From NCBI RefSeq assembly GCF_017991995.1, contig NZ_JAGOPN010000001.1, forward strand, positions 372,001-436,000: 64,000 nt of DNA, in the 5' to 3' direction. The notes under the pieces are model-generated. The model made no database searches, was not told where the DNA came from, and saw only the letters and a program-made list of their open reading frames with translations. Below are positions 12,587 to 24,121 of the stretch, in pieces. The translations under genes and the position numbers were made by a program. Numbering within the stretch: the stretch's first letter is position 1; every line of letters begins with the position of its first letter. Source of the DNA: Pseudacidovorax sp. GTDB lineage: Bacteria > Pseudomonadota > Gammaproteobacteria > Burkholderiales > Burkholderiaceae_C.

Positions 12587-13867
12587 TCAGCTTCGCGCGG
12601 GCATGAAGGCCGTGGTGTCCGGGCGTCCTTCGACGAACAGCTGGGACGTCGCCGCTGGCGACTTCGCCAGCAGCCGGCCCTTGCGGTAGACCGCCAGCCG
12701 CGTGGCGCGCAGCCGGATCGCCTCCACCGGATCGCGCGCCTGCAGCAGCACGAAGCTGGCATCGCAGCCTGCCGCGATGCCGTAGCCCGGCAGGTGCATG
12801 AGGCGCGCCGCATTCGCGGTCACGGCCTCGAAGCACTGCTGGATGCCGGCTTGACTGGTCATCTGCGCCACATGCAGGCCCATGTGGGCCACCTCCAGCA
12901 TGTCGCCCGAGCCCATGCCGTACCACGGGTCCATCACGCAGTCGTGGCCGAAGGCGACGTTCACGCCAGCCGCCATCAGCTCGGGCACGCGGGTCATGCC
13001 GCGGCGCTTGGGGTAGCTGTCGTGCCGGCCCTGCAGCGTGATGTTGATCAGCGGGTTGGCGATGACGCTGACGCCCGCCTCGGCGATCAGTGGCAGCAAC
13101 TTGCTCACGTAGTAGTTGTCCATGCTGTGCATGGAGGTGCAGTGCGAGCCCGTCACGCGGCCCTGCAGCCCCAGGCGCTGCGCGTGGAAGGCCAGCGTCT
13201 CGATGTGGCGCGACAGCGGGTCGTCGGACTCGTCGCAGTGCATGTCGACCAGCTTGCCTTCTTCGGCGGCGATCTCGCACAGCAGGCGCACGCTCTCCGC
13301 ACCGTCGGCCATGGTGCGCTCGAAATGCGGAATGCCGCCCACGATGTCCACGCCCTTGCGCAGCGCGCGGCGCAGGCTGTCGACGCCGCCGGCGGTGCGC
13401 AGCACGCCGTCCTGCGGAAAGGCCACCAGCTGCAGGTCGATGTAGGGCGCCACGCGGCGCCTGACCTCCAGCAGCGCATCGACGGCGAGCAGGCTGGGGT
13501 CGCTGGTGTCCACATGGCTGCGGATGGCCAGCAGGCCCTTGGCCGCCGCCCAGTCGCAGTAGGCGAGGGCGCGTTCGATCAGCGCCTCGGCCGTCAGCAG
13601 CGGCTTGAGCTCGCCCCACAGCGCGATGCCTTCGAGCAGCGTGCCGCTCTGGTTGACACGCGGCAGGCCGTAGCTGAGCGTGGCGTCCATGTGGAAATGC
13701 GGATCGCAGAAGGGCGGCGCCACCAGCAGGCCGCCGGCGTCCAGCGTCTCGTGGGCCGGCGAAGCGAGGCCGGTTGCCACCTCGACGATGCGGCCGTCCT
13801 GGACGGCGATGGACTGGCCGGTGCGGCCGTCGGGCAGGGTGGCGTGGGTGATGAGCAGGTCGAGCAT
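12587..13867 (-). CDS. cytosine deaminase-like amidohydrolase
   Basis: 426-residue metal-dependent amidohydrolase with the overall pattern of E. coli CodA (427 residues). Metal ligands H57 and H59 (PHFHMD), HCDES, GSHCTS and D309 (GHDCVMDPWYGMG) are all present. In CodA the last motif reads GHDD; the second Asp (D314), which contacts the pyrimidine, is Cys310 here, so the substrate may be another amino- or oxo-heterocycle rather than cytosine. It lies downstream of, and on the same strand as, the nucleobase transporter and URC genes, though separated from them by a plus-strand VOC gene. Confidence 0.82.
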   Translation of the reverse strand: MLDLLITHATLPDGRTGQSIAVQDGRIVEVATGLASPAHETLDAGGLLVAPPFCDPHFHMDATLSYGLPRVNQSGTLLEGIALWGELKPLLTAEALIERALAYCDWAAAKGLLAIRSHVDTSDPSLLAVDALLEVRRRVAPYIDLQLVAFPQDGVLRTAGGVDSLRRALRKGVDIVGGIPHFERTMADGAESVRLLCEIAAEEGKLVDMHCDESDDPLSRHIETLAFHAQRLGLQGRVTGSHCTSMHSMDNYYVSKLLPLIAEAGVSVIANPLINITLQGRHDSYPKRRGMTRVPELMAAGVNVAFGHDCVMDPWYGMGSGDMLEVAHMGLHVAQMTSQAGIQQCFEAVTANAARLMHLPGYGIAAGCDASFVLLQARDPVEAIRLRATRLAVYRKGRLLAKSPAATSQLFVEGRPDTTAFMPARS

Positions 13868-14012
13868 GGGACGATCGGAAGACGGGGCGGGACAAGCGAC
13901 GCAAGCGGCTTGCCAGCGTGGGCCCGGCTGTCGGATTCATGCAAGACAGCGCGGCGCGGGCTGCCTATTCTGGCCGGGCTTTCCTGCCCTCATTCACCCG
14001 GAGCATTCGACC

Positions 14013-21521: not shown

Positions 21522-22844
21522 TCAGAACACCGTGCCGTCGCTCTCGATGCGCAGCGGGGGCAGGCCATGGCGCAGGCGCTGGGCCACGGCCCGGCCGGCC
21601 GCCCAGGTGCCGCCTTCGAGGATGCAGGCCAGCGGCATCTCCTCGGCGCTGCGGCCGACGTGGCGACGCACGATGGGTGCCAGCTCATCGAGCAGTGCCA
21701 CGGTCAGGGCGCGCCATTCGACGATGAATTCGTCGCCGACCTGCCAAGTGCGTTCGAGCAGGGCCGCATCGCGCGGCACGATCACGCCGGTGTCCAGCAG
21801 CAGGCCGCCATTGCGGTACTCGGGCAGGGCGGTGAGGGCGTCCAGTCCTTCGACCTTCACGCCCGCCCACTCGAAGGGCTCGATCAGCGAATAGGTGAGC
21901 CACTGCGACAGCTTGTGGAAGGGTACCCAGCCGTGGGTGCGGCCCTCGCCGCCGACCGCGCTGTGCGCCCAGCAGTCGCCCAGGGCCAGCGCCGGCTCGC
22001 CCGGGCCGGGCAGGGCGGTGGGGTGGCGATGCAGGTAATTGGCCGAGGGCCAGATGGCCGAGAGCGAATCCAGCAGCAGCGTGAGGATGGCGTGCACCTG
22101 CACCGTCGCGGTGGGCGGGACCGCCACGCCTTCGGGCGCGATGAGCATGTCGAACAACCCGCCGGGCCGCTGCACCTCGGTGCCGAAGACGGCCGGCTGC
22201 TCGGCCAGCACCTCACCCAGGCGGCGCAGCAGCGTGACCCGGCCGTCCAGGCCGACCAGCGGGTTGTCGCTGCGCACCTGGAAGGCTTGCGCCAGACGGT
22301 CGGTCACCAGGGCACGCAGGCCGGCGGCATCGGCCTGCAAAGGGCGATCCGGGTCAGAAGAAAACAGTCCGGCCTTGAAGGCATGGAAGCTGGCCACGCC
22401 CAGGCCCTCGGAACGGGTGAAGCGCTGGTCGGACGCCGACTCGTGGTAGGCCCAGTCGGCACCGGCGCCCGCATCCAGCAGCACGCTCACCACGGCGAGA
22501 TCGATGCGCGCCTTGGCCTTCTCGCGGGGCGTCGCATGTTCGCCCAGCAGATGATCGAGTTCGGCCGCCCGGTCGACGCCGCCCGCCTCGAAATGCCGCC
22601 AGCGGCTGTGGTACGGGATCGGCCGCCACGCGTAGCGCGCCTGGGTGACCTGGGCCACTTCACGCGCCGCATCGTCCAGGCTCGTCTCGTCGCCGATGGT
22701 GAAGAAGGCCGATTCGCCGCGGCGCGCGCGGGCCAGCAGTTCGGCCGCGCGCTCGCGCACGGCGACCGTCGTGCGCAGCCAGGCGACGGCGGCCTCGGGT
22801 TGGTTGAGGTCGGTGGCGGGAAGCACGTGTTGGCTGTCCGTCAT
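21522..22844 (-). CDS. URC4/urg3 family protein (DUF1688), uracil catabolism
   Basis: 440-residue DUF1688 protein (URC4 of Lachancea kluyveri, urg3 of fission yeast). Features seen: WRPIPYHSRWRHFEAGG, AYHESASDQRFTRSEGLGVASF, DNPLVGLDGRVTLL, FHKLSQWLTYSLIEPFEWAG. The family is genetically required for uracil breakdown by the URC route; its reaction is not settled as far as I know. Its ATG overlaps the stop of the upstream URC1-like gene (ATGA), so the two are translationally coupled; upp follows 50 bp later. Confidence 0.9.
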   Translation of the reverse strand: MTDSQHVLPATDLNQPEAAVAWLRTTVAVRERAAELLARARRGESAFFTIGDETSLDDAAREVAQVTQARYAWRPIPYHSRWRHFEAGGVDRAAELDHLLGEHATPREKAKARIDLAVVSVLLDAGAGADWAYHESASDQRFTRSEGLGVASFHAFKAGLFSSDPDRPLQADAAGLRALVTDRLAQAFQVRSDNPLVGLDGRVTLLRRLGEVLAEQPAVFGTEVQRPGGLFDMLIAPEGVAVPPTATVQVHAILTLLLDSLSAIWPSANYLHRHPTALPGPGEPALALGDCWAHSAVGGEGRTHGWVPFHKLSQWLTYSLIEPFEWAGVKVEGLDALTALPEYRNGGLLLDTGVIVPRDAALLERTWQVGDEFIVEWRALTVALLDELAPIVRRHVGRSAEEMPLACILEGGTWAAGRAVAQRLRHGLPPLRIESDGTVF

Positions 22845-24121
22845 TCGCCCAGCCCCCGCCCGCGGGTGGCCTTGAGTTCATCGGCACCGGGCACCTTGCC
22901 GGGTGTGAAATAGCCGGCCGCCATCTTGGCGTCGATCTCGACCCGGGCATCCGCCGGGATGAGGTCGTCGGGGATGTTGACGCGCTCGCCCACTTCGATG
23001 CCCGAGCCGGTGATGGCGTCGTATTTCATGTTGCTCATGGAGACCAGCCGGTGGATCTTGCGGATGCCCAGCCAGTGCAGCACGTCGGGCATCAGCTCCT
23101 GGAAGCGCATGTCCTGCACGCCGGCCACGCATTCGGTGCGGGCGAAGTACTGGTCGGCGGTGTCGCCGCCCACCTGGCGCTTGCGGGCGTTGTAGACCAG
23201 GAACTTGGTGACCTCGCCCAGCGCCCGGCCTTCCTTGCGCGCATAGGAGATCAGTCCCACGCCGCCGCGTTGCGCGCCCTGGATGCATTCCTCGATGGCG
23301 TGCGTGAGATAGGGGCGGCAGGTGCAGATGTCGGAGCCGAACACGTCCGAGCCATTGCATTCATCGTGCACACGGGCGGTGAGTTCGACCTCGGGGTTGG
23401 CCAGGTCGCGCGGGTTGCCGAAGATGTAGATCGTCTGCCCGCCGATGGGTGGCAGGAAGACTTCGAGGTCGGAGCGCGTGACGAGCTCGGGATACATGCC
23501 GCCCGTCTCCTCGAAGAGCACGCGCCGCAGGTCGGTCTCGGAACAGCCGAATCGTCGGGCCACGCCCGGCAGCCACCAGACCGGCTCGATGGCCGCCTTG
23601 GTGACCAGCGCGGCGCCACCGGCAGTCAGGAACTTGCCGTCGGCCTTCAGGCGGCCCTTCTGCAGCGCGTCGATCACCTCGGGCAGGATCACATGCGCCT
23701 TGGTGACGGCGATGGTGGGCCGGATGTCGTAGCCCGCGCCCAGTTCCTGCGCGAAGACGTCGGAGACGACGGCGCCCCAGGGGTCCATCGACACGATCTT
23801 GCCCGGCTCGCTCCATTGCGGATAGGGCCCGATCGCGTCGGTCGGCGACGTGTTGGTGAGGTCGGCACGGTGCTCGCGCTTGAGCGCCCCCGCGGCCACG
23901 GCCAGTGCGCGGTAGACGCTGTAGCTGCCGCTGTGGGTGCCGATCACGTTGCGGTGGGCGCGCTTGGTCGTAGTGCCCACGACCGGTCCGCGTTCGGCCG
24001 GGGTGGCCGCGTCCCAGTGGATGGGCAGCGAGCCCAGGCCGCCGGCATGCGAGGTCAGGCGGATGTGCTGGCGGGAGGAGGGTGAGGTGGCAGGGGGAGA
24101 CGTGGTGCTGTCTACAGACAT
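22841..24121 (-). CDS. GTP cyclohydrolase II-like protein, URC1 type (uracil catabolism)
   Basis: 426 residues: a roughly 200-residue N-terminal extension, then a RibA fold. The three zinc cysteines are kept (DECNGSDVFGSDICTC). Elsewhere the riboflavin-enzyme motifs differ: GRGIGL reads GRALGE, the DT-x2-AN motif reads DTADQY, and TNNP-x-K reads SMSNMK. The long form with these changes fits URC1 of the uracil route rather than riboflavin synthesis. GAGGG precedes the ATG. First gene of the leftward cluster; divergent from a hybrid kinase across 143 bp. Confidence 0.88.
   Translation of the reverse strand: MSVDSTTSPPATSPSSRQHIRLTSHAGGLGSLPIHWDAATPAERGPVVGTTTKRAHRNVIGTHSGSYSVYRALAVAAGALKREHRADLTNTSPTDAIGPYPQWSEPGKIVSMDPWGAVVSDVFAQELGAGYDIRPTIAVTKAHVILPEVIDALQKGRLKADGKFLTAGGAALVTKAAIEPVWWLPGVARRFGCSETDLRRVLFEETGGMYPELVTRSDLEVFLPPIGGQTIYIFGNPRDLANPEVELTARVHDECNGSDVFGSDICTCRPYLTHAIEECIQGAQRGGVGLISYARKEGRALGEVTKFLVYNARKRQVGGDTADQYFARTECVAGVQDMRFQELMPDVLHWLGIRKIHRLVSMSNMKYDAITGSGIEVGERVNIPDDLIPADARVEIDAKMAAGYFTPGKVPGADELKATRGRGLGE

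Follow-up and report, generated by a model that had tools for sequence, protein, structure and literature searches.

A bacterial URC uracil-catabolism module beside a putative nucleobase-uptake block in Pseudacidovorax, with a predicted Qng1-type fold for URC4

Introduction

Several routes for opening the uracil ring are known, among them the URC pathway. Yeast URC4 converts ribosylurea to urea according to passages of a modelling paper that summarises earlier work (PMC7530994), the fission yeast urg genes are described in part of another report as clustered and uracil-induced (PMC2174524), and a section of a third source states that many bacteria share conserved URC1 and URC4 (PMC3869809). 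A portion of PMC9499338 cites a theoretical study of UTP cyclohydrolase from 2022. For the URC4 step the gene is known, and no enzyme mechanism was found in the literature that we searched, most subscription journals lying outside it. The Pfam label of the URC4 family (PF07958, DUF1688) is unknown function, and plasmid records name 9 of 13 URC4 matches "URC4/urg3 family protein", the other four having no listed gene. Here we analyse a 64,000-nucleotide (nt) stretch of a Pseudacidovorax sp. genome of 6.24 Mb (C5:372001-436000), referred to as the window, in whose own coordinates features are given unless another contig or locus is named. The window carries URC1, URC4 and the uracil phosphoribosyltransferase gene upp together with genes for an ATP-binding cassette (ABC) importer, a nucleosidase and a deaminase. 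A bacterial URC module joined to a nucleobase-uptake block, with the reaction chain proposed below, is in our view probable and the best explanation of this locus, and the predicted Qng1-type fold of URC4 appears to be its most useful new lead.

Results

Organization and recurrence of the locus

As the preliminary description of this DNA had read them, URC1, URC4 and upp lie consecutively; they are on the minus strand, in a cluster that runs from 12587 to 24121. URC1 (22841-24121), GTP cyclohydrolase II-like and of the UTP cyclohydrolase type, matched PF12471 and PF00925 as well as NCBIfam PRK07198 (801 bits, cut-off 403); URC4 (21522-22844) matched PF07958 with 479.6 bits; and upp (20836-21471), in the role of URC6, matched TIGR01091 with 272.4 bits (cut-off 208.35). 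URC1 and URC4 are joined by an ATGA overlap (gap of -4 nt), and 50 nt separate URC4 from upp. After a gap of 282 nt the minus strand continues with genes for a BMP/PnrA-type periplasmic binding protein, a probable nucleobase binder (19555-20553; PF02608 in the longer open reading frame, ORF), an exported lipoprotein nucleosidase of the MTAN (PNP_UDP_1) family (18624-19541; PF01048), an importer ATPase with two ATP-binding stretches (17053-18636; PF00005 in both), and two permeases, the first at 15986-17056 (PF02653) and the second at 15066-15989 (PF02653 in the longer ORF, with an ATG start taken from the ATGA overlap). The spacing within this block is 13, -13, -4 and -4 nt. A GNAT acetyltransferase gene (14414-15016; PF13302) lies 49 nt beyond permease 2, and 546 nt further on stands a CodA-type deaminase gene (12587-13867; PRK07572, 789.5 bits, cut-off 438). 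Family matches and coordinates bear out the earlier account of a complete BMP-type importer, a lipoprotein nucleosidase and a deaminase following the trio on the same strand; every gene it named is present, but it omitted the GNAT gene, and the nucleosidase gene sits inside the importer block, between those of the binding protein and the ATPase. Given these gap sizes, two or three units are more likely than one proven operon. A single promoter-like site was found at 24170-24142, directly ahead of URC1, but chance alone would be expected to give 0.5 sites of this kind.

Scanning named genomes yielded at least 569 confirmed URC4 relatives; the loci used here are the best 80 of these, so that the sample is biased to near kin; sorted by record title, these comprise 50 Pseudomonadota loci, mostly Burkholderiales, and 30 Actinobacterial ones. 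Among the named relatives kept, the closest URC4 copies were those of P. intermedius DSM 21352 (97% identity to the window copy) and Pseudacidovorax RU35E (95%). Linkage was counted by tblastn, requiring E ≤ 1e-20 and an identity of 45% or more, and loci that extend 9 kb or more downstream of URC4 (39 Pseudomonadota, 26 Actinobacteria) were treated as long. URC1 and upp were both present in all 39 long Pseudomonadota and all 26 long Actinobacterial loci; across the 50 Pseudomonadota loci as a whole URC1 was found in 49, at 98% identity in L014, and L016 has just a short piece of it. A complete importer accompanied the trio in 25 of the 39 long Pseudomonadota loci (a partial one in 1/39), a CodA deaminase in 33 and the nucleosidase in 14, as against 0/26 for each of the three in the long Actinobacterial loci. 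The same-strand order of trio, importer and deaminase recurs in loci titled Variovorax, Xenophilus, Hydrogenophaga, Rhodoferax and others, and also in genome G038. The co-occurrence check that the preliminary description had proposed was therefore positive, with trio, importer and deaminase recurrently linked in Pseudomonadota loci, and this clustering exceeds chance. The trio is of an established kind, and the extended cluster is a variant found in Pseudomonadota, mostly Burkholderiales. At L024 the importer ATPase and permease pieces (12561-16256 of that locus) run in the opposite orientation to the other genes of the cluster.

A set of 300 genomes drawn evenly from the order is referred to below as the order set. 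URC4 exceeded its cut-off in 11 of these genomes and RutA in 2; the nucleosidase was detected at E ≤ 1e-20 in 4, and 33 had the deaminase at E ≤ 1e-60.

Predicted fold and candidate active site of URC4

The comparison with Qng1 was chosen before the fold model of URC4 was computed. An AlphaFold model of the window protein, built from 31 sequences (predicted local distance difference test score, pLDDT, of 89; predicted TM-score, pTM, of 0.90), matched 11 PDB chains at E ≤ 0.001, all of them Qng1/DUF2419, with the next match at E 0.49. A second model, of an Actinobacterial URC4 (29 Actinobacterial sequences, 11 of them in common with the first alignment; pLDDT 91.7), again had Qng1 as its only match at E ≤ 0.001, in 11 chains (best E 1.2e-10); among its weak further matches were two DNA glycosylases, 1xqp (E 0.58) and 4hsb (E 2.3). 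Over both predicted structures the Qng1 matches ranged from E 1.2e-10 to 5.3e-8. By Pfam, Q_salvage was the commonest second family among the URC4 members, with weak matches in 7 of 31 (best E 0.0084); the window URC4 scored 12.3 bits for PF10343, below its cut-off of 25. A search for PF10343 in 398 genomes of the phylum gave no matches, controls included, so that absence is unproven by it, and the Qng1 piece described next had no matches in plasmids or viral contigs.

For the residue comparison, a Qng1 piece was retrieved with a typed consensus and its positions were set by the mutant entries K199C and D231N. The Qng1 segment K199-R-A-Q ... L-T-A-F-A-D231-Y-K can be set beside K311-L-S-Q ... 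L-T-A-L-P-E342-Y-R in URC4, and in the common pattern K-x-x-Q ... [DE]-Y-[KR] E342 stands 31 positions past K311, compared with 32 in Qng1. All 31 aligned URC4 sequences carry the pattern, as do 80 of the 4699 ORFs of the loci, many of them spurious; 79 of these 80 are URC4 by motif or coordinates and one is not. K311 is present in 80 of 81 URC4 copies and E342 in all 81. Fold matches to Qng1 alone, together with the conserved K311 and E342, suggest that URC4 is probably an N-glycosidase that frees urea from ring-opened UMP. As judged from the models, we consider it quite probable that DUF1688/URC4 is a nucleotide N-glycosidase with an ancestor in common with Qng1 that would convert ribosylurea-5'-phosphate to urea and ribose-5-phosphate by means of K311 and E342. 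DUF1688 is absent from the DUF2419, queuosine and Qng1 literature that we examined, to which subscription journals were mostly external, and we make no claim that the relationship is unpublished.

Several observations weigh against this assignment. The TM-scores between URC4 and Qng1 are moderate (0.54-0.77) and the root-mean-square deviations are 4.4-6.4; the two URC4 models are not fully independent, because 11 alignment rows are common to both; and K311 and E342 are paired with K199 and D231 by motif and spacing, not by superposition. By sequence alone the resemblance of URC4 to Qng1 is weak: shuffled sequences reached the score in 9 of 2000 cases for the bacterial piece and 46 of 2000 for the human piece. 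K311 is replaced by Asn in one of the 81 copies. Profile searches of the PDB with the URC4 alignments missed Qng1, the first returning nothing to E 10 and the second one other match at E 0.39.

URC1 and upp

URC1 is by eye approximately 85% identical, over nearly its full length, to PDB entries 7eev and 7ej3, which carry the molecule name GTP cyclohydrolase II and which we take to belong to the UTP cyclohydrolase paper. As these are bacterial URC1 structures, the earlier remark that the bacterial form of the route is little studied holds only in part. The URC1 of Rhodococcus wratislaviensis showed 84% identity by tblastn. Three Cys, a Tyr and an Arg that align to RibBA 4i14 are kept in all 80 URC1 copies, and presumably have the functional roles that they have in that enzyme. 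GTP cyclohydrolase II releases pyrophosphate, and for this reason we take the URC1 product, by analogy, to be a 5'-monophosphate. The genome has two copies of upp, the second at G000:C9:3868-4479.

Importer binding protein, nucleosidase and deaminase

The nearest solved relatives of the BMP protein are 3s99, in which adenine is modelled, and AtzT (6pi5), whose affinities are given in part of PMC6834077 as 0.11 uM for guanine, 2.5 uM for adenine, 800 uM for cytosine and 1600 uM for uracil. Among 30 copies of the BMP protein, Glu165 of AtzT is kept in all and Trp194 in 29 (the remaining copy has a stop), and at the place of Tyr45 there is a Trp in 29 copies, one being unread (Trp46 in the alignment to 3s99; the AtzT alignment is shifted by one residue). 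At the positions of the AtzT guanine contacts, Glu replaces Asn218 and Phe replaces Asn220 in 30/30, and Ser97 is kept in 1/30. In our reading the site would be an aromatic clamp that holds a base whose edge differs.

The solved relatives of the nucleosidase are the methylthioadenosine/S-adenosylhomocysteine (MTA/SAH) nucleosidases (MTAN), and its score was above the cut-off for TIGR01704 (103 bits, cut-off 73.8) and below that for PRK05584 (131.2 bits, cut-off 169). The translation has a LAGC lipobox at residues 17-20, and 14 of 19 copies have a Cys aligned with that of the lipobox. The MTAN residues E12, F151, M173, E174, S196 and D197 are kept in all 19 copies (16 at URC loci and 3 elsewhere); we take them to form a purine-type signature in which D197 contacts the purine. 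In G038 the gene lies away from the URC locus, and it occurs in two other genomes that lack URC4. The nucleosidase step of the preliminary description, from nucleoside to base, found no support as a conversion of uridine or cytidine, given the purine-type residues in 19/19 copies, the absence of the gene from 25 of the 39 long Pseudomonadota loci and its position off the locus in three genomes. A fixed pairing of URC with the nucleosidase was also considered and rejected: among the four order-set genomes with the gene, two are without URC4 and a third has it off the URC locus.

In the deaminase, alignment places a Cys where E. coli CodA (1k6w) has an Asp, a position that we take to be number 314, and the CodA catalytic positions that we checked are kept. 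Passages of PMC6186785, in which the position is numbered 315, report a Ser there in the Klebsiella 5-methylcytosine deaminase Kpn00632 and a gain of 5-methylcytosine activity in the CodA Ala mutant. Of 35 URC-locus copies 34 are readable, and 33 of these have the Cys, L064 having Asp; so do 29 of 30 order-set copies (30 of 34 matches, the other four being without a locus). This suggests, from the residue comparison, that the deaminase acts on 5-methylcytosine or on a broader range of bases, so that it may yield thymine as well as uracil. The cytosine-deaminase-like assignment made earlier stands, but conversion of cytosine to uracil may not be the main job of the enzyme. As a mark of URC-linked copies the Cys was rejected, being a trait of the subfamily: it was present in 22 of 23 order-set copies from genomes without URC4 and in 7 of 7 from genomes with it.

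Other routes of uracil breakdown in URC4 genomes

On contig C18 of the same genome, rutA, rutB, rutC, rutD and rutF all exceeded their NCBIfam cut-offs, and an ORF beside them is by eye a TetR-type regulator. Inspection by eye of the ORFs around rutA-F (L102) showed neither rutE nor rutG, and the genome was not searched for either. For the reductive (Pyd) route, no PreA in the window genome was over the cut-off (best 124.1 bits against 335). Urease alpha is encoded in the genome. Since rutABCDF is present, URC is not the sole candidate route for uracil here. By the preliminary description's own statement, its reading would fall if a complete RutA-G or reductive pathway in the genome accounted for all uracil use; the rutABCDF set comes close to the former, while for the latter PreA did not exceed its cut-off. 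Two further ORFs lie beside the rut genes in L102 (G000:C18:141000-156000), namely a second BMP-type binding protein with a weak NF047927 match (73-1233 of that locus) and, at 1663-2655, an ORF that by eye is iron/2-oxoglutarate dioxygenase-like and has no NCBIfam match.

From the 80 loci we picked 32 named genomes with URC4, and RutA was detected in 13 of them; the other 19 are without it, as are all 10 additional order-set genomes that carry URC4. The genomes in which RutA and URC4, that is, two ring-opening routes, stand together are those of L014, L015, L018, L019, L022, L023, L025, L029, L030, L031, L042, L047 and L058. A test for PreA (E ≤ 1e-80) covered another set of 32 genomes, made up of the window genome, two Pseudacidovorax genomes with RutA, the 19 named RutA-less genomes and the 10 order-set genomes; it was positive in 2, both from the order set, so that 27 of the 29 RutA-less URC4 genomes are also without PreA, which speaks for URC as a genuine route of uracil use. 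If those strains use uracil, URC must work there without RutA and PreA, and among URC, Rut and PreA it may be the only route open to these 27.

Neighbouring genes

The GNAT gene was found in 2 of the 50 Pseudomonadota loci (L014 and L036). It is not in L015, where the permease and deaminase matches are only about 60 nt apart, and it therefore looks like an insertion; the gene is probably outside the pathway. Divergent from URC1 is a gene for a very large MHYT-PAS-histidine kinase-receiver-Hpt hybrid kinase (24082-27966, plus strand, starting at 24082 or later), of which a close copy occurs in 2/50 Pseudomonadota loci, both Pseudacidovorax. Terminal oxidase genes follow at 29608-32866 (plus strand), comprising COX2 with COX_ARM and COX1 and quinol-oxidase-like in appearance. 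Downstream of the deaminase, at 8981-11933 on the minus strand, lie genes for an ExaC-type acetaldehyde dehydrogenase (952.6 bits, cut-off 900) and an AdhP-type alcohol dehydrogenase (353.8 bits, cut-off 344). These were considered as finishers of the pathway and rejected, ExaC being present in 2 and AdhP in 0 of the 50 Pseudomonadota loci (at least 45% identity; many loci end earlier).

Discussion

In the reaction chain that we propose, the importer would take up a base that may be methylated or an amino base; the deaminase would convert (alkyl)cytosine to uracil or thymine; Upp would form UMP, which general kinases would raise to UTP; and URC1 would open the ring, releasing a three-carbon acid and leaving ribosylurea-5'-phosphate. 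URC4, in its predicted Qng1/DUF2419 fold, would then cut the N-ribosyl bond by way of K311 and E342, yielding urea and ribose-5-phosphate, and the urea would be taken by the urease encoded elsewhere in the genome. We infer all of these reactions, and most of all the URC4 substrate and the importer ligand, from gene content, homology and models. The full path drawn in the preliminary description, from nucleoside to base outside the cell, through uptake, deamination and UMP formation, to ring opening, is partly supported: the linkage of trio, importer and deaminase stands, and the specificities that it implies for the nucleosidase, deaminase and importer are unsupported or weakened.

The linkage itself might be read differently, as two adjoining modules used separately, in which the URC trio stands beside a purine or modified-base set (importer, nucleosidase and deaminase) and the importer does not feed URC. 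The 282-nt gap between upp and the BMP gene would fit such a division, as would the MTAN residues of every nucleosidase copy and the fact that the nearest solved binding proteins take purine bases, AtzT binding guanine at 0.11 uM against 1600 uM for uracil in the part of PMC6834077 cited above. However, the order of trio, importer and deaminase on one strand recurs across the titled loci and in G038, and the AtzT guanine contacts are replaced in the BMP protein (Ser97 in 29/30 copies, Asn218 and Asn220 in 30/30), so that we regard separate use as a doubtful alternative. Against a joined uptake block stands its distribution: importer genes are absent from 13 of the 39 long Pseudomonadota loci and all 26 long Actinobacterial ones, which also suits separate modules, and 26 of the 33 deaminase-bearing genomes of the order set are without URC4. 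The importer and deaminase may accordingly serve other bases, and in the window strain the Rut genes could carry uracil use.

Were this last point pressed, URC would have a minor or regulatory part here and rutABCDF would do the actual uracil breakdown. Five rut genes over their cut-offs with a TetR-type ORF alongside, and RutA in 13 of the 32 named URC4 genomes, are consistent with that; but the remaining 19 named and all 10 order-set URC4 genomes lack RutA, 27 of these 29 lack PreA too, and rutE and rutG were not recognised next to rutA, with the limit on that search given above. We think this unlikely. It seems to us more unlikely still that URC4 has the Qng1 fold yet hydrolyses another bond, for example a ureido C-N bond. 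A fold and a motif leave the reaction unproven, but Qng1 K199 and D231, the residues mutated in substrate-complex entries, have candidate counterparts in URC4, and the yeast outcome described in passages of PMC7530994, ribosylurea to urea, fits an N-glycosidase. A URC module supplied by a linked nucleobase-uptake block remains the reading that we favour, and its URC4 step is made directly testable by the Qng1 fold match and two named residues. If the N-glycosidase assignment is true, uracil breakdown and tRNA-base salvage use one enzyme fold.

Compared with described systems, the trio belongs to the same three protein families as URC1, URC4 and URC6 of Lachancea kluyveri and urg1-urg3-urg2 of fission yeast. 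Unlike these, it stands in operon-like order with an importer, a nucleosidase and a deaminase alongside; no urea amidolyase gene is among the adjoining genes, the genome not having been searched for one, and the genome has urease alpha. Between window URC1 and the UTP cyclohydrolase of 7eev/7ej3 we noticed no difference in kind. The nucleosidase has the catalytic residues of MTAN in common with it, and adds a lipoprotein signal and about 44 residues between the matched stretches. Relative to the purine binders AtzT and 3s99, the BMP protein keeps Trp46 (by alignment to 3s99), Glu164 and Trp193, and has mostly Ala/Val, Glu and Phe at the positions of Ser97, Asn218 and Asn220. CodA, Kpn00632 and the window deaminase are of one family, and have Asp, Ser and Cys, respectively, at position 314. 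Finally, URC4 has the same predicted fold as Qng1/DUF2419, the N-glycosidase of queuosine-5'-monophosphate, and a similar Lys plus Asp/Glu motif, but is only 15-22% identical to it, has Glu for Asp231, is approximately 50-115 residues longer and stands in another metabolic context.

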